Part shown: one piece after another, positions 12,820 through 20,105 of the stretch
Numbering within the stretch: position 1 is the stretch's first letter
How the letters are laid out: each line of letters begins with the position of its first letter
Assembly: GCF_030064895.1 (NCBI RefSeq)
Contig: NZ_JASJEB010000026.1
Span: 1 to 41,209, forward strand
Length of the DNA stretch: 41,209 nt
Direction of reading: 5' to 3'
Source: Crocosphaera sp.
GTDB lineage: Bacteria; Cyanobacteriota; Cyanobacteriia; Cyanobacteriales; Microcystaceae
Notes under the pieces: model-generated
What the model saw: only the letters and a program-made list of their open reading frames with translations
Told to the model about the DNA's origin: nothing
Databases searched by the model: none
Made by a program: the position numbers and the translations under genes

Positions 12820-13971
12820 ATGAAATTAAAACAAAGTTTTTGGTTTAATATCCTATCTAATTGGGAACATTGGTGCAAAAAAACTATAGTCGCTATGATG
12901 GTAGTGACCCTATCTATTAGTTTATCTGGGGCAACCTGGAATCAGTTTGGCACAAATTCCATGTTAATTGGCGCGCTTGCTCAAGGAAACGCCATTACTA
13001 ACCCCGAAGCTATTTTAAGGTACGCTTTACCTATTGATAACGAACCGATTCGCAAAGTTCAAGATGCGATCGAAGATATTTCCAATCATCTGAGGGGAAA
13101 ACGTTGGCCTCCCATCGCTAAAGATGCTAAAACCGCTTCCTTTGTACTCGCCATACGCAGCGATAAAATTATCGAGGGGGTTCCTAGCGATCGCCAACCC
13201 CAAGCAGAAATGCTGTTAGAAAATGTTAAAACAGGGGTCAGCGAACTGCAAGAAGCAGTAAAAAATAAGGATAGAGAACAGGTATGGCTAACAAGAAGAG
13301 CTATTCTCGATAATATTGGTGAGATTGAAGCCTTAATGGTGGAAGGTTTCCCTTTTGATGTCCCCACAGAATACGCCAACTTGCCTCAGTTAAAAGGACG
13401 GGCTACGGTTAAACTAGAAACGACCAAAGGGGACCTTACCATTGTGGTTGATGGTTACAACGCCCCTATTAATGGAGGAAACTTTGTTGATCTGGTGCAA
13501 CGAGGTTTCTACGATGGTTTACCTTTTCTTGACTCAGAAGATGGTTTTGCCATCCAAACAGGTGATCCTAAAGGGACAGAAGAAGGGTTTATTGACCCAG
13601 AAACAGGAGAATATCGTGCTATTCCCATGGAAATTTTAGTTAAAGGCGAGGAAACACCAATTTATGGTGCAACTCTCGAAGAGGTAGGTATTTATTTACC
13701 AGACTTAGTTCTTCCCTTTAATTCTTATGGGGCTGTTGCTTTAGCTCGTCCTAGTTTAGATCCTAACGGTGGATCATCACAATTTTTCTTTTTTAAATTT
13801 GACAGTGAATTAACTCCTCCTGGGTTTAACGTAATGGATGGCCGTTATTCTGTTTTTGGCTATCTAGTTAATGGGAAAGAAACATTAGCAGAGTTGACCA
13901 AAAAAGATCAAATTGTTTCAGCAGAAGTGATCGATGGGTTAGATAATTTAGTTCAACCTCAAAACAGTTAA
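12820..13971 (+). CDS. CYP38/TLP40-type cyclophilin peptidyl-prolyl isomerase
   Basis: A 383-residue exported protein. The N-terminus has a positively charged stretch and a hydrophobic segment (TIVAMMVVTLSISLSGA), so it is targeted to the periplasm or thylakoid lumen. Residues about 60-175 form the helical domain typical of CYP38/TLP40 (EPIRKVQDAIEDISNHLRG, then GVSELQEAVKNKDREQVW). The C-terminal part is a cyclophilin domain (ATVKLETTKGDLTIVVDGYNAPI, GNFVDLVQRGFYDGLPF, SQFFFF). In plants this protein supports photosystem II assembly and has little isomerase activity. The ATG at 12820 is used; a terminator hairpin lies 31 bp past the stop. Confidence 0.92.
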   Translation: MKLKQSFWFNILSNWEHWCKKTIVAMMVVTLSISLSGATWNQFGTNSMLIGALAQGNAITNPEAILRYALPIDNEPIRKVQDAIEDISNHLRGKRWPPIAKDAKTASFVLAIRSDKIIEGVPSDRQPQAEMLLENVKTGVSELQEAVKNKDREQVWLTRRAILDNIGEIEALMVEGFPFDVPTEYANLPQLKGRATVKLETTKGDLTIVVDGYNAPINGGNFVDLVQRGFYDGLPFLDSEDGFAIQTGDPKGTEEGFIDPETGEYRAIPMEILVKGEETPIYGATLEEVGIYLPDLVLPFNSYGAVALARPSLDPNGGSSQFFFFKFDSELTPPGFNVMDGRYSVFGYLVNGKETLAELTKKDQIVSAEVIDGLDNLVQPQNS

Positions 13972-14002
13972 TTCCCAAAAGCTTAATACTTAAATTGTAA
14001 GT

Positions 14003-14033
14003 AATGTGAACAATAATAATGTTCACATTTTTT
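14003..14033 (+). terminator. intrinsic terminator of the cyclophilin gene (copy 1)
   Basis: AATGTGAACA, 7-nt loop, TGTTCACATT, then a run of T. A 10-bp perfect stem just after the cyclophilin stop codon. A near-identical hairpin lies at 14518-14548. Confidence 0.85.
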
Positions 14034-14125
14034 ATTTGAAAATATATCACTCAATAATGATATGTAAGAAGCGATAATATATCAGGACATAATAGTGTTA
14101 TTTCGCTACTAATAGATTCTTGTAG

Positions 14126-14146
14126 GGGTTTAACACTGTTAAACCC
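14126..14146. repeat. 8-bp stem REP-like hairpin
   Basis: GGGTTTAA, 5-nt loop, TTAAACCC, preceded by TGTAG. Similar in design to the perfect palindrome at 2388-2413. Lies between the terminator and the first nrd-type promoter block. Confidence 0.55.
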
Positions 14147-14229
14147 TTCTCTTCATTTTCTTGTAACTGATAATTATAGTAGAGATCACAATCATCGGGA
14201 GGAAAACAAGCTAAAGTAAAAATCCGCGA

Positions 14230-14245
14230 GATCTACATATAGAGT
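14230..14245. promoter_or_regulatory. NrdR-box-like palindrome 1, copy 1
   Basis: GATCTACATATAGAGT; read on the other strand, ACTCTATATGTAGATC agrees with the recalled NrdR consensus acaCwAtATaTwGtgt at about 12 of 16 positions. The next box starts 43 bp on, about four helical turns, matching the paired same-face boxes known for NrdR, the ATP/dATP-sensing repressor of ribonucleotide reductase genes. Confidence 0.65.
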
Positions 14246-14264
14246 AATTGAGCCAATATTGTTC

Positions 14265-14293
14265 AAGACAGAACACTATATATGTGGTATAAG
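14265..14293 (+). promoter_or_regulatory. extended -10 promoter of the 45-codon gene
   Basis: A -35-like AAGACA (14265-14270), 17-bp spacer, and extended -10 TGG-TATAAG (14285-14293). The second NrdR-like box fills the spacer, the classical position for repression. The predicted transcript starts near 14300, giving a leader of about 34 nt with a strong Shine-Dalgarno. Confidence 0.6.
14273..14288. promoter_or_regulatory. NrdR-box-like palindrome 2, copy 1
   Basis: ACACTATATATGTGGT matches the recalled NrdR consensus acaCwAtATaTwGtgt at about 13 of 16 positions. It lies between the -35 and -10 elements of the promoter at 14265-14293. The NrdR gene itself is not in the window. Confidence 0.7.
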
Positions 14294-14333
14294 GAAAAAG
14301 TAGCATTATACATTAGTAGACATGGAGGTTTAA

Positions 14334-14471
14334 ATGGAAGAAATAGTAACAAAAATTCTTGAAAACGTAGATAAAAATGGAGGGCAGACCGTCTATGTTA
14401 TTCTGGCAGTATGTGTTTTGATTATTGTTCTGACACAAAGTATGATTGAAATCATTAAAGTGATTCAATAG
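14334..14471 (+). CDS. 45-residue single-pass membrane protein under an nrd-type promoter
   Basis: ATG at 14334 with a perfect GGAGG at 14324-14328, 5 bp upstream; stop TAG at 14469-14471. Residues 1-18 are polar and mixed-charge (MEEIVTKILENVDKNGGQ), followed by a hydrophobic helix of about 20 residues (TVYVILAVCVLIIVLTQSM) and a short tail IEIIKVIQ. It has its own promoter with two NrdR-like boxes, almost a copy of the nrdA promoter, and its own intrinsic terminator at 14518-14548, so it is a self-contained transcription unit. I do not recognise the family. Co-regulation with ribonucleotide reductase suggests a role linked to dNTP supply, for example as a small membrane regulator, but that is inference. 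Confidence 0.75.
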   Translation: MEEIVTKILENVDKNGGQTVYVILAVCVLIIVLTQSMIEIIKVIQ

Positions 14472-14517
14472 AGTAGCAAATAGTACACATATTTAACACT
14501 TAAATCAGTAATCAATT

Positions 14518-14548
14518 AATGTGAACAACAATAGTGTTCACATTTTTT
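14518..14548 (+). terminator. intrinsic terminator of the 45-codon gene (copy 2)
   Basis: AATGTGAACA, 7-nt loop, TGTTCACATT, then TTTT. Same stem and same loop length as the hairpin at 14003-14033. It isolates the small gene from nrdA. Confidence 0.85.
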
Positions 14549-14688
14549 CTTGAAAAATAGTTTAAAAAACTTGCTTAAATGCTTGGCTTTAATAGTATTA
14601 ATTCCCTCGTATAATACTTAACTCTCCATTAATTGTAGTAGAGATCACAATTATGAGGTACAAAACAAGCTAAGGTAAAAATCCGCGC

Positions 14689-14704
14689 TATCTACATATA
14701 GAGT
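14689..14704. promoter_or_regulatory. NrdR-box-like palindrome 1, copy 2
   Basis: TATCTACATATAGAGT, identical to the copy-1 box from position 2 on. Starts 43 bp before the next box. Confidence 0.65.
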
Positions 14705-14723
14705 AATTGAGCTAATATTCTTG

Positions 14724-14752
14724 GAGACAGAACACCATATCTGTGGTATAAC
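14724..14752 (+). promoter_or_regulatory. extended -10 promoter of nrdA
   Basis: A -35-like GAGACA (14724-14729), 17-bp spacer, extended -10 TGG-TATAAC (14744-14752). Same design as the promoter at 14265-14293, with the NrdR-like box in the spacer. Confidence 0.6.
14732..14747. promoter_or_regulatory. NrdR-box-like palindrome 2, copy 2
   Basis: ACACCATATCTGTGGT. Its outer bases are symmetric (ACACC against ACCAC on the other strand). It lies in the nrdA promoter spacer. Confidence 0.65.
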
Positions 14753-14839
14753 CAAAAAGTGTCCTTATCAAGTTGACATAAATTGCCTGGAAAAAATTAA
14801 GTACAAAATTATTATTTTTCATTCGTCCTAATAGTATAA

Positions 14840-17149
14840 ATGATGCAACCCACCGTCTTAACTTCCCCTCAACAAACCTTTAATAACGACACTCAAACCT
14901 CTTCTATCTACCATTCACACCTAGGAGACGGTAAAATTAGAGTGAGACGACGGGACGGATCTTGGACTGCGTTAAATATAGCCAAGATTCGGGCAGTGGT
15001 AGAATGGGCTTGTGCTGGACAAGAAGTAAATAATATTGCCCTAGAAGCAGGGTTAACAACTCGTCTCCGGGACGGCATTACCACCAGAGAGATCCAGGAT
15101 AACCTAATTAACTGTGCTTTGGAAATGTGTAGTCCAGACGAACCAGACTGGCGTTATGTTGCAGGAAGACTTCATATCTGGAGTCTCTGGAAAGATACCC
15201 TAGTCAATCGTGGTTATCAGTATGGCAGCTATGAAATTACAGCCAGGACTAAAGTAGAATGCAAACAATACGATAATCGTCTCTTAACCTATTCTACAGC
15301 AGAATTACGAGAAGCCGGAACATGGATTAATTCAGACTGGGATACTGACTATGACTATGCTGGGGCGGTTTTGTTAACCAGTCGTTACCTTTTGGAAGAT
15401 GAACTTCCCCAAGAAGCGTTTTTAACCTGTGCTTTACTTTTGGCAACGGTAGAAAGTCCCGAAAATAGATTACCTTGGGCAAAACGATTTTATGAAGCCA
15501 TAGCCAAGCGCAAAGTGTCTCTGGCAACCCCTATTTTAGCTAATTTACGGGTTCCGGGGGGATCTTTGACCAGTTGTTTTATTTTGTCCATCGATGACAA
15601 CCTGGAGAGCATTTTTGAGGAGATTACTAACACGGCGAGGATCTCCAAAAATGGCGGTGGTGTTGGGGTCAATGTCAGTCGTATTCGGGCCACTGGTAGC
15701 TGGGTGATGGGCAAAAATAACGCTTCTGGGGGCGTTATTCCTTGGATTAAATTATTAAATGATACTGCGATCGCTGTTAACCAAGGAGGAAGACGGGCCG
15801 GGGCCGTTACGGTTGGCTTGGATATTTGGCATTTAGATGTACCAGAATTTTTGGAAATACAGACAGAAAATGGCGATCAAAGACGGAAAGCTTATGATGT
15901 TTTTCCTCAGTTAATTTTGACCGATGAATTTATGCGTCGGGTGGAAAATAAGCAGGAATGGACGTTAGTTGATCCTTATGAAGTTAAGGAAAAGTTTGGT
16001 ATTGAGTTAGCCGAATTATGGGGGGAAAAGTTTGAGGAAGCTTATCGTTTAATCGAGGGCCGATTAGATAGAGAAATTACTCTCTATAAGCGTGTTAATG
16101 CTCGTGAATTGTTTAAAACAATGATGCGATCACAGGTGGAAACGGGGATGCCTTATTTAGCTTTTAAAGATACCATTAATAGGGCTAATCCTAATAAGCA
16201 CGTTGGCTATATTCCGGGTGTAAATTTATGCACAGAGAGCTTCTCAAATGTTACTCCAGGACAAGAAGCACATTGTTGTAATTTAGTTAGTTTAAATTTA
16301 GCAAATATTGAGGAAGAAGAACTCGATTATCTCTGTAATATTTCGGTTCGTATTCTCGATAATACCATCGATATTACTAACCCTCCCTTTGGCGATGCAA
16401 AAGCACATAATGATCGATATCGTACTGTTGGAGTCGGTTGTATGGGGTTAGCTGACTGGTTGGCTAAAAAGGGTTTAACCTACGAAAATATAACAGAAAT
16501 TAGTAACTTATTTGAAGAGGTAGGTTATTGGTGTACCCATACGTCTATGGAGTTGGCAAAAGAAAGAAGTCCTTATAATGCTTTTGAGGGAAGTGACTGG
16601 AGTAAAGGGTTATTAATAGGCTCAAAACCTGTTGATTGGTTCCTTGAAAATGCTGCTAAAAAAGAGCGTTGGGTTCAGTTATCAGAAGACATTAAAACAT
16701 TCGGTATTCGTAACTCCCATATAACTGCGATCGCACCTAATACTTCTTCTTCTTTGGTACAGGGTTGCACTGCTAGTATTCTTCCTGTTTATAGTCGTTT
16801 CTTCTACGATAAATGGGCAAAAGGAACTGTTCCTATTGCACCTCCTTTTATTCAAGAATCTTTTTGGTTTTATCACGAAAATAAGACCTTAGATCAGCAA
16901 AAAGTGGTTAAAGCAGTTGCCACTATTCAACAATGGATAGATACAGGTATTTCTATGGAATTGTTGTTTAATTTGAATCAAGGTGTTTACTTTGCTGATG
17001 AACCGGAACGTTGTTTAACTGCTAAGGATATTTTTGAGACGTTACTATTAGCTTGGAAAGAAGGTTGTAAGGCAATATATTACGTTAGGACTGTACAAAA
17101 AGACGATTTTAAAGAGTCTGATAATAATTGCACTGCTTGTGCTAATTAA
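14840..17149 (+). CDS. nrdA: class I ribonucleoside-diphosphate reductase, alpha subunit
   Basis: A 769-residue catalytic subunit that reduces ribonucleoside diphosphates to deoxy forms. Residues about 32-115 are an ATP-cone (IRVRRRDGSWTALNIAKI), so dATP feedback control is expected. Active-site residues are present: Cys246 (SLTSCF), the NLCTE trio Asn462, Cys464 and Glu466, and Cys480 (HCCNLVSLNL). The paired tyrosines of the radical-transfer chain (CKAIYYVRT) and the C-terminal redox pair Cys764/Cys767 are also there. Two adjacent ATGs (14840, 14843) are possible starts. The partner nrdB is 1.9 kb downstream, separated by DUF29 genes. Expression is probably NrdR-controlled. Confidence 0.97.
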   Translation: MMQPTVLTSPQQTFNNDTQTSSIYHSHLGDGKIRVRRRDGSWTALNIAKIRAVVEWACAGQEVNNIALEAGLTTRLRDGITTREIQDNLINCALEMCSPDEPDWRYVAGRLHIWSLWKDTLVNRGYQYGSYEITARTKVECKQYDNRLLTYSTAELREAGTWINSDWDTDYDYAGAVLLTSRYLLEDELPQEAFLTCALLLATVESPENRLPWAKRFYEAIAKRKVSLATPILANLRVPGGSLTSCFILSIDDNLESIFEEITNTARISKNGGGVGVNVSRIRATGSWVMGKNNASGGVIPWIKLLNDTAIAVNQGGRRAGAVTVGLDIWHLDVPEFLEIQTENGDQRRKAYDVFPQLILTDEFMRRVENKQEWTLVDPYEVKEKFGIELAELWGEKFEEAYRLIEGRLDREITLYKRVNARELFKTMMRSQVETGMPYLAFKDTINRANPNKHVGYIPGVNLCTESFSNVTPGQEAHCCNLVSLNLANIEEEELDYLCNISVRILDNTIDITNPPFGDAKAHNDRYRTVGVGCMGLADWLAKKGLTYENITEISNLFEEVGYWCTHTSMELAKERSPYNAFEGSDWSKGLLIGSKPVDWFLENAAKKERWVQLSEDIKTFGIRNSHITAIAPNTSSSLVQGCTASILPVYSRFFYDKWAKGTVPIAPPFIQESFWFYHENKTLDQQKVVKAVATIQQWIDTGISMELLFNLNQGVYFADEPERCLTAKDIFETLLLAWKEGCKAIYYVRTVQKDDFKESDNNCTACAN

Positions 17150-17301: not shown

Positions 17302-17736
17302 ATGAATCAAAATTTATATGATACCGACTACCATCTTTGGTTAGAAAAAACTGTCCAAATATTACAAGAAAGAAAATTAAAAGATTTGGACATCCCTAAT
17401 TTAATAGAGGAAATATCTGATATGGGAATTAGTCAAAAAAAAGCAGTAAAAAGTAACTTAAAAATTCTGCTTTGTCACCTATTAAAATATAAATATCAAC
17501 CAGAAAAGCGTTCAAAAAGCTGGTTATCTACTATTTTTGAACATCGGGACAGACTAGAAGATGATTTTTCTGATAGTCCCAGTTTAAAACGATATTTTGG
17601 GGAAGTTTTTGAACCTTGCTATCAAAAAGCAAGAAAACAAGCATCAATTGAAACAGGTTTACCCTTAGAAATTTTTCCCATTAACTGTCCTTTTACTCAT
17701 GAAAAAGTATTAAATATGGATTATTTACCTGAATAG
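17302..17736 (+). CDS. DUF29 family protein (copy A)
   Basis: A 144-residue DUF29 protein, a small helical family of unknown function widespread in cyanobacteria. The hallmark start YDTDYHLWLEKTVQILQERK is followed by LDIPNLIEEISDMG, HLLKYKYQPEKRSKSW, EHRDRL, DSPSLKRYF and ETGLPLEIFP. It is the most divergent of three tandem paralogues sitting between nrdA and nrdB. A perfect palindrome at 17757-17784 follows it. No link to nucleotide reduction is known. Confidence 0.92.
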   Translation: MNQNLYDTDYHLWLEKTVQILQERKLKDLDIPNLIEEISDMGISQKKAVKSNLKILLCHLLKYKYQPEKRSKSWLSTIFEHRDRLEDDFSDSPSLKRYFGEVFEPCYQKARKQASIETGLPLEIFPINCPFTHEKVLNMDYLPE

Positions 17737-18038: not shown

Positions 18039-18473
18039 ATGAAAACGAACTTATATGATAAAGATTATTATTTATGGTTAGAAGAAACTGTACAATTATT
18101 ACAAGAGGGAAAATTTACATATTTAGATATTCCTAATTTGATAGAGGAAATAAAAGATATGGGAATTAGTCAAAAAAAAGCAGTAAAAAGTAACTCTCGG
18201 ATACTATTAATGCACCTATTAAAATGGAAATATCAACCCAGTAAATGCTCAAAAAGTTGGAAGTGTTCTATTATTGAACATAGAAAAAGAATTAGAGATA
18301 GTTTTGAAGATAGTCCTAGTTTAAAAGTTTATTTTGCTGATAACTTTGACTTATGTTATCAAGATGCTAGAGAATTAGCTGCCGCAGAAACAGGATTATC
18401 TATCAATGAATTTCCTATTGAATCTCCTTTTTCCCAACAAGATACCTTGAAACCAGATTATTTCCCCGAATAA
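18039..18473 (+). CDS. DUF29 family protein (copy B)
   Basis: A 144-residue DUF29 protein with the same order of motifs as copy A (YDKDYYLWLEETVQLLQEGK, LDIPNLIEEIKDMG, HLLKWKYQPSKCSKSW, DSPSLKVYF, ETGLSINEFP). The DNA around the ribosome-binding site and the first 25 codons is almost identical to copy C (18023-18099 against 18478-18554), while the rest has drifted. It probably forms a two-gene unit with copy C, 14 bp downstream. Confidence 0.92.
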   Translation: MKTNLYDKDYYLWLEETVQLLQEGKFTYLDIPNLIEEIKDMGISQKKAVKSNSRILLMHLLKWKYQPSKCSKSWKCSIIEHRKRIRDSFEDSPSLKVYFADNFDLCYQDARELAAAETGLSINEFPIESPFSQQDTLKPDYFPE

Positions 18474-18487
18474 AAATAGAGGTCATT

Positions 18488-18919
18488 ATGAAAACGAACT
18501 TATATGATAAAGATTATTATTTATGGTTAGAAGAAACTGTACAATTATTGCGAGAGGGACGATTGACAGATTTAGACATCCCTAATTTAATAGAGGAAAT
18601 GAAAGATATGGGAAGAAGTGAGAAAAATGCTTTAGAAAGCAACTTAATCGTCCTATTAATGCACTTACTAAAATGGAAGTATCAACCTCAGAAACAAAGC
18701 GGTAGTTGGCGTAGAAGTATCCGAGAACATAGAAGACGTATCTTAAAAGCCTTTAGAAATAGTCCCAGTTTAAAAAGATATTTTGAGGTAGTTTTTGATG
18801 AAAGTTATCAAGAAGCACGAAAACAAGCCGCCGATGAAACCGGACTTTGTTTAAATACCTTTCCAAAAAATTGTCATTTTAAAATTGAGGAAATTCTTGA
18901 TTCTGAATACCTACCATAA
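18488..18919 (+). CDS. DUF29 family protein (copy C)
   Basis: A 143-residue DUF29 protein starting 14 bp after copy B. Its N-terminal 21 residues equal those of copy B, and the body diverges (IEEMKDMGRSEKNALESNLIVLLMHLL; SWRRSIREHRRRI, more basic). The sharp change from near-identity to ordinary paralogue divergence suggests recent local duplication or gene conversion of the 5' end. Function unknown. Confidence 0.92.
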   Translation: MKTNLYDKDYYLWLEETVQLLREGRLTDLDIPNLIEEMKDMGRSEKNALESNLIVLLMHLLKWKYQPQKQSGSWRRSIREHRRRILKAFRNSPSLKRYFEVVFDESYQEARKQAADETGLCLNTFPKNCHFKIEEILDSEYLP

Positions 18920-19046: not shown

Positions 19047-20105
19047 ATGATTGTCACGAATCAAACAGAAATGCCCATCAATCCTATCTTTAATCCAGAA
19101 GGAGATGATGCTATTGAAAATCGTTCTATCTGGTTTGGGAATACCACAAACTTGATGCAATTAAACGATGTTCGTTACACATGGGCAGTGGGTTTATATC
19201 AACAAATGAGGGAAAATTTCTGGATTCCTCAAAGATTGGATGTTACTCAAGATGTAACTGATTATGCTAATTTAACGGATGATGAAAGATACGCTTATGA
19301 TGGAATTTTATCCTATCTTACCTTTTTAGATTCTGTTCAAACTTGTAATATTCCTCACCTAAAAGGTAGTATTACTGCCCCAGAAATTAGTCTTTGTATG
19401 GCAGAACAAATCTCTCAAGAAGGGATGCACAACCAAAGTTATCAATATCTAATTGAAACAATTATTCCTCCAGAAAGAAGGACTCAAGTTTATGATTTTT
19501 GGCGTACTGATAAAGTTTTAAAAGATCGCTGTGAATTCATTGCTAAGTTGTATCAAAAGTATATTGATGATGCAACTGCTGAAAACTATTTTATTGCGTT
19601 GATGGCTGATTTTTTGTTAGAAGGACTCTATTTTTATAATGGGTTTATTTACTTCTATAATTTAGCATCTCGGATGTTAATGCCAGGGTCTGCTGACATT
19701 TTTAAAATGATTAATCGTGATGAGTTAAGTCACGTTAGATTATATCAAAAATTAATCCCAGAAGCGAGAAAAGTTTTTCCTCATTCTGTTGAACAAATCT
19801 ATGAAATGTTTGACATGGCGGTTAATTATGAATGTCGCTGGACTAATCATATTGTTGGGGATAATATCTTAGGAATTACTGAGTCTAGTACAGAAAAATA
19901 TACCAAGTATTTGGCTAATATTAGATTACGCTCTATTGGTTTAGAACCCCTTTATCCTGAACCTAAATACAATAAGAGTCCTTACACCCATTTAGAAAGG
20001 TTTTCTGATACTAAAAAAGAGGCACATACTAAGGCGAATTTCTTTGAAGCAACTGTTACCAGTTATGTCATGTCTTCCGGTTTAACAGGATGGGATGAAA
20101 TTTAG
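19047..20105 (+). CDS. nrdB: class I ribonucleoside-diphosphate reductase, beta subunit
   Basis: A 352-residue ferritin-like subunit that generates the radical used by NrdA. Ligands of the dimetal site are visible: Asp95 (TFLDSVQT), Glu125 and His128 in SQEGMHNQSY, Glu192 (LLEGLYFY), and Glu226 and His229 in INRDELSHV. Tyr132 lies exactly where the stable tyrosyl radical sits in E. coli R2 (ExxHxxxY), so this is a Tyr-radical enzyme and not the Phe-bearing class Ic type. Length is normal. It has its own upstream region and is not in an operon with nrdA. Confidence 0.96.
   Translation: MIVTNQTEMPINPIFNPEGDDAIENRSIWFGNTTNLMQLNDVRYTWAVGLYQQMRENFWIPQRLDVTQDVTDYANLTDDERYAYDGILSYLTFLDSVQTCNIPHLKGSITAPEISLCMAEQISQEGMHNQSYQYLIETIIPPERRTQVYDFWRTDKVLKDRCEFIAKLYQKYIDDATAENYFIALMADFLLEGLYFYNGFIYFYNLASRMLMPGSADIFKMINRDELSHVRLYQKLIPEARKVFPHSVEQIYEMFDMAVNYECRWTNHIVGDNILGITESSTEKYTKYLANIRLRSIGLEPLYPEPKYNKSPYTHLERFSDTKKEAHTKANFFEATVTSYVMSSGLTGWDEI

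Follow-up and report, generated by a model that had tools for sequence, protein, structure and literature searches.

A 45-codon gene behind a copy of the nrdA promoter in Crocosphaera, probably an orphan of a STAND-linked family of small membrane proteins

Introduction

What would a gene of only 45 codons do behind its own copy of the promoter for nrdA, which encodes the large subunit of ribonucleotide reductase (RNR)? The question arises at positions 14334-14471 (+ strand) of the window, a 41,209-nucleotide contig of a Crocosphaera strain (NZ_JASJEB010000026.1; genome G000). An initial annotation of this DNA described the open reading frame (ORF) as the gene of a membrane protein co-regulated with RNR, and proposed that its product might be a partner, tether or regulator of the enzyme.

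Results

A small gene with start and stop signals of its own

The ORF opens with ATG at 14334-14336 and its stop codon ends at 14471, giving 45 codons that translate as MEEIVTKILENVDKNGGQTVYVILAVCVLIIVLTQSMIEIIKVIQ. A ribosome-binding site (RBS), GGAGG at 14324-14328 (+), lies 5 nt before the ATG, so that the start signals and length first described for the gene are borne out. The single hydrophobic helix claimed for the product is also readily seen: the best 19-residue Kyte-Doolittle mean is 2.65, over residues 20-38, and an AlphaFold2 model built on a 14-row alignment (mean pLDDT 83; pTM 0.51) has helices at residues 2-10 and 17-44. The codons of the longer, predicted transmembrane (TM) helix, residues 17-44, occupy 14382-14465 (+). 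A product made up of a membrane helix and a short N-terminal helix would most likely insert in the membrane.

The intrinsic terminator attributed to the ORF corresponds to a terminator-like hairpin followed by a T run at 14518-14544 (+), one of three terminator-like sites in the 1 kb searched, where 0.4 would be expected. Its surroundings, 14514-14559, are 87% identical to a first terminator-like hairpin region, 3' of a cyclophilin gene at 13999-14044 (+). Between this first hairpin and the promoter copy described below, 14124-14148 can form a hairpin of 11 pairs (one of them G-T) with a 3-nt loop.

A copy of the nrdA promoter with NrdR-like boxes

Upstream of the ORF, 14171-14309 (+; P1) is a copy of the nrdA promoter region at 14630-14768 (+; P2), 85% identical over 139 nt; the copy does not contain the nrdA leader beyond 14309. 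In P2, box 1 is at 14689-14704, box 2 at 14732-14747 and the -10 element, TATAAC, at 14747-14752. The corresponding elements of P1, all on the + strand, are box 1 at 14230-14245, box 2 at 14273-14288 and a likely -10, TATAAG, at 14288-14293, which follows TGTGG and overlaps box 2. The -10 region reads TGTGGTATAA in the promoters of the genus and TATGGTATAA in P1 of G006, a second genome of the genus. In both P1 and P2, box 1 retains the canonical C-9-G core, a near-consensus box 2 overlaps GTGGTATAA, and the spacer between the boxes is 27 bp. The near copy of the nrdA promoter with both NrdR-like boxes, as initially reported, is real.

Taken singly, the boxes are weak. Against a 16-nt NrdR consensus, P1 scores 11/16 for box 1 and 13/16 for box 2, where the right-half G comes one base late, and the P2 boxes score 11 and 11. 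Within the window, 108 16-mers score at least 11/16, and a loose scan for NrdR boxes found 8 sites where 7.2 were expected, so that single boxes are at chance level. The case for NrdR-like boxes rests on conservation. The box 2/-10 element precedes nrdA in all nine genomes of the genus and in two genomes of two other genera of the Microcystaceae. In the 5.5-Mb genome, a 20-nt pattern written from this element is matched perfectly at P1 and P2 and nowhere else; when up to 3 mismatches are allowed, the only further sites are two with 3 mismatches elsewhere in the genome, and a reversed control of the pattern gave no site. A sigma-70 scan flagged neither P1 nor P2. NrdR itself (TIGR00244) is found over the cut-off in eight of the nine genus genomes, that of the studied strain included. 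According to PMC12051234, the box pairs to which four NrdRs bind in vitro have spacings of 14-17 or 24-27 bp, which puts the 27-bp spacer at the edge of the permitted range, and a conserved C/G pair is described for NrdR boxes in PMC9110341. The core of box 1 is canonical; box 2 departs from the consensus by its late G.

Since the ORF has its own copy of the nrdA promoter, it is likely to be co-regulated with RNR through P1, the NrdR sites being putative. The co-regulation initially proposed is in this sense probable, with the promoter copy, the conserved box 2/-10 element and the presence of NrdR in its favour, and is best regarded as candidate regulation read from the sequence. Lying between tandem nrdA promoter copies, the gene probably has a transcript of its own, of roughly 250 nt, under the RNR switch.

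A riboswitch or small RNA in the repeated leader was considered and rejected, as Rfam at gathering scores gave no match anywhere in the window; at a lax setting, 13900-14900 gave three matches far below gathering, none of them in P1 or P2. The same searches bear on the idea that the product is a small hydrophobic peptide like the type I toxins, its expression being harmful when dNTPs run out. The size, the single TM helix and the stand-alone transcription unit would suit such a toxin, and a promoter-like site (10/12) lies on the opposite strand over the RBS. However, promoter-like sites are common in this AT-rich DNA (12 found, 5.5 expected), no antitoxin RNA was found, Rfam giving no match at gathering scores, and members of the protein family described below are linked to STAND genes, all of which makes a toxin of this kind very unlikely.

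The nrdA gene that follows P2, at 14840-17149 (+), encodes an RNR large subunit of 769 aa with an ATP-cone (Pfam), and the small-subunit gene nrdB is at 19047-20105 (+). Three DUF29 genes separate the two (17302-17736, 18039-18473 and 18488-18919). A second NrdA-like protein, 78% identical to that of the window, is encoded on contig C67 of the same genome (2201-4474; its upstream region is in locus L052); no box 2/-10 motif was found upstream of it at up to 4 mismatches. The nrdB of the window is the only PF00268 match in the genome and the one small-subunit gene found there. In G003, G004, G007 and some other genera, nrdA is matched in two pieces within open frames of about 1109-1139 aa, the pattern that an intein would give.

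A relative in the same position in one other genome

Among 59 related genomes, the only clear close relative of the small protein is in G006 (54% identity, E 1.9e-5), whose contig matches Cyanothece sp. BG0011; once their frames had been read, the other matches of this search beyond G006 and G013 were dismissed as chance. In G006, too, the gene is on the strand of nrdA and upstream of it, follows a copied nrdA promoter and has a similar hairpin 3' of the ORF. Here the copied segment spans the promoter and reaches into the first nrdA codons, so that the G006 small protein starts with the NrdA N-terminus. Set beside G005, which has a single promoter, G006 contains an insertion made up of the ORF, the hairpin and a second promoter with leader.

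Over 30 ungapped codons of the G000-G006 pair, dN is 0.25 and dS 0.88 (dN/dS about 0.29), and synonymous changes are favoured (Fisher p 0.006-0.016, depending on rounding). Conservation of the frame in related genomes had been named as a check on the gene; it is found in one sister genome, and as evidence of purifying selection this one close pair is good but not overwhelming. Taken with the signals around the ORF, 14334-14471 is very likely a real coding gene.

Its distribution is patchy. The gene is present in two of the nine genus genomes, G000 and G006, and was not found in the other seven (three of these 79-89% complete), each of which keeps nrdA behind a single promoter copy. Another member of the family is present in the same genus, in G002, on a contig different from that of nrdA. 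In a promoter tree rooted by midpoint, the two G000 copies pair (82/87) and the two G006 copies form an open trio with the single G005 copy (80/68). The G006 copies are 86% identical to each other and 91 and 89% identical to the G005 copy; because they differ more from one another than from G005, the comparison suggests that the duplication is older than the split between G005 and G006 and was then lost in G005.

Patchiness of this kind would also be seen if the ORF were a passive passenger beside nrdA, a decaying or neutral remnant whose promoter was duplicated accidentally by recombination. The direct repeats P1 and P2 would permit clean loss by homologous recombination, and the ease of such loss would explain the patchy presence; in addition, an orphan family copy in G013 resembles a STAND-linked copy within the ORF alone. 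On the other hand, the frame, the start context and the terminator are intact in both G000 and G006, synonymous changes are favoured between them, and both boxes and the TATA element have been retained in P1 despite the 15% divergence between P1 and P2. A passenger is a possible explanation, then, but a doubtful one.

A family of small proteins across the order

A profile (A1) made from the window ORF, the G006 ORF and two copies from G013 was used to gather further relatives. The family obtained in this way consists of small proteins of about 45-113 residues, spread across the order (Cyanobacteriales), which have in common a helix with the pattern G-x-(P/x)-x-x-I-(I/L)-A-(I/V)-A, often along with a basic tail. 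The window ORF is like them in being small and in having one TM helix after the conserved G. A second profile was built from 15 family members without any genus sequence, though its rows had themselves been gathered with A1. With E limited to 1e-3, it matched 79 of 388 genomes in the order; some of these matches are weak or contain stops. At the same threshold its sole match in G000 is the window ORF (E 2.4e-5) and its sole match in G006 is the ORF adjacent to nrdA (E 5.8e-9). The figure of 79 is used as the census of the family because an earlier count, 83/388 at E up to 0.1, includes chance matches inside long proteins. With a hidden Markov model of 25 members, the window ORF scores 19.6 bits, and none of 2000 shuffles that keep its hydrophobic pattern scores as high (maximum 13.4); this test is partly circular, since the window sequence was in the profile that first gathered the members.

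Outside the order, the family looks rare. Of 292 genomes in the phylum, 15 were matched with E limited to 1e-5, and 14 of these are in the order; at this threshold G000 itself gave no match. An origin in phages or plasmids was considered and set aside: with tblastn, the G013 protein had no match in plasmids and the G006 protein none in phages, and no confirmed relative of profile A1 was found in viral contigs.

No Pfam model matches the nine family members tested and no PADLOC model the ten tested. NCBIfam, put to ten members, gave one match, of L131 to the Psb35-related family, at E 0.0051 and 17 bits, where the cut-off is 80. Against a Psb35 profile, the subgroup of the family formed by L118, L131, L132 and L125 scores 9-19 bits, where shuffles reach at most 8.0, and a distant link of this subgroup to a photosystem II small protein is possible. 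For the window ORF, a Psb35-related identity was rejected, as a profile of 11 Psb35-related sequences gives it -1.1 bits and NCBIfam gives it no match; the studied strain has a separate match to NF047380, over the cut-off, on contig C36.

Divergent STAND NTPases beside the family genes

In more than half of the family loci, the small gene is divergent from a gene for a STAND-type protein and separated from it by about 70-850 bp. When a link was defined as a divergent STAND segment within 1.1 kb of the small gene, it was found in 22 of the 36 loci examined first and in 11 of the 20 examined later, leaving 23 of the 56 without a divergent STAND gene. The first loci are part of the places found at E up to 0.1, chosen by score and open-frame length before their neighbours were inspected; the later ones were drawn, with some skipped, from the remaining places found at E up to 1e-3. 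Counted strictly, the later loci give 9/20, which drops L142, where there is only a sub-threshold AAA_16 match with TPR repeats, and L141, which rests on L142. The same rule gave 0/159 for genes in nrdA loci of related genomes and 0/135 for distant genes in the family loci; the 41 control loci come from nrdA searches, overlap in part and include the window's own, and the 18 STAND segments used as reference include neighbours from both locus sets that had been checked by Pfam, and so favour the family loci over the controls.

By Pfam, the STAND partners are of several kinds: NB-ARC with TPR repeats, EAD4 with NB-ARC, NACHT with NCC-H, to which HEAT repeats are added in some, and nSTAND1-like ATPases. 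Weak HTH matches were obtained for a few, and in two loci there is a sub-threshold TRADD-like N match. That the class of partner varies while the small protein is constant is as expected of a shared downstream part. Several loci were left out of the STAND count: L108 and L136, whose divergent neighbour gives only sub-threshold TRADD-like N; L153, with sub-threshold HTH; L139, with no match; L124, a TPR-only fragment; and L125, with AAA_35. Among Pfam-checked divergent neighbours, those of L098 (peptidase M32), L105 (DUF2887), L143 (nothing over the cut-off) and L134 (no match) are not STAND proteins. Nor is there a divergent STAND NTPase within about 1.1 kb of the window ORF (for which 17 window proteins were put to Pfam), of the G006 ORF or of one of the two G013 copies. 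Divergent linkage to a STAND gene is typical of the family, not universal.

The G013 pair (L061:5976-6149 and L062:5790-5963) consists of one STAND-linked copy and one orphan, 95% identical in DNA. The likeness is confined to the ORF, from the ATG or its immediate neighbourhood to the first base past the stop, and the flanks differ. Judged by their translations, the neighbouring genes resemble those for homoserine kinase, LeuC and IS630-type transposases.

These neighbourhoods bear directly on the proposal that the 45-residue protein is a dedicated RNR accessory, whether partner, membrane tether or regulator. The nrdA-type promoter architecture, the adjacency to nrdA in two genomes and the presence of nrdB in the window would all suit such a role. 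However, seven of nine genus genomes keep nrdA and were not found to have the gene, the G002 family member is on another contig than nrdA, and outside the G000/G006 pair none of the 56 family loci (3-12 kb each) has a match to nrdA or nrdB. Conservation in cyanobacteria with placement beside nrdA, which had been named as a further check, is seen in G006 and in none of those 56 loci. Because the gene is absent from so much of its own genus and the family is linked to STAND NTPases instead, the idea of an RNR partner is disfavoured and now appears highly improbable.

Discussion

The reading that we prefer, with a probability of about 0.6, is that 14334-14471 is the gene of a single-pass membrane microprotein, an orphan of a STAND-linked cyanobacterial family placed under an RNR-type switch, and that its product is an effector or anchor and not an RNR subunit. 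Since its relatives elsewhere adjoin STAND sensors and not RNR, the gene has probably strayed from such a system and come under the control of a switch for DNA precursors. Through promoter duplication, the orphan gene would have come to be flanked by tandem nrdA promoter copies. At high dATP, NrdR would occupy the P1 boxes and the 45-residue gene would be repressed; at low dATP, release of NrdR from the boxes would allow the membrane protein and NrdA to be produced at the same time. By analogy with its STAND-linked cousins, which probably act in this way, the protein is probably a small membrane effector or anchor.

An alternative for the family as a whole is that the STAND protein merely controls the divergent promoter of the small gene. 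A bolder extension of the effector reading is that these undescribed single-TM microproteins are the membrane effectors of NLR-like STAND NTPases, and that at this locus dNTP depletion triggers one of them via NrdR with no STAND sensor involved. We regard this as speculative and rather unlikely. If it is true, depletion of DNA precursors, for example by a phage or by replication stress, would directly trigger a membrane effector. The finding suggests that a number of cyanobacterial NLR-like STAND proteins have a small protein as partner, and the locus offers a natural case in which part of a STAND system is seemingly controlled by a nucleotide-sensing RNR switch. Both the effector question and the link between dNTP state and a membrane response become testable.

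The family of STAND-linked single-TM small proteins is apparently undescribed so far. Among the matches listed in the open-access literature, titles and opening abstracts mention no small membrane protein beside cyanobacterial STAND, NB-ARC or NACHT genes or near RNR, and the accessible parts of PMC7159879, PMC8195603 and PMC10907252 contain no description of one paired with a STAND gene. STAND systems themselves are known; what would be new here is their small partner, found in an orphan setting behind an RNR promoter.

Several known systems invite comparison. The Psb35-related proteins (NF047380) likewise are small, come from cyanobacteria and have a hydrophobic stretch. Membrane proteins of under 50 aa, type I toxins among them, are similar in length and in their single TM helix; the 45-residue protein differs in that no antisense RNA was found and in belonging to a separate, STAND-linked family. 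The STAND/NLR-like conflict systems of multicellular bacteria (PMC7159879, PMC8195603) share with the family partners the NB-ARC, NACHT, nSTAND, EAD4 and NCC-H domains. They differ in that no small single-TM partner of this kind is described in the accessible parts of those papers, and the window and G006 genes differ further in having no STAND partner nearby. The closest parallel for the regulatory side is provided by the NrdR-regulated RNR promoters (PMC12051234, PMC9110341): the locus is like them in its two NrdR-like boxes, its 27-bp spacer, a box 2 lying over the likely -10 and an encoded NrdR, and unlike them in its off-consensus box 2 and in that a duplicated RNR promoter here precedes a small gene that is not an RNR gene.
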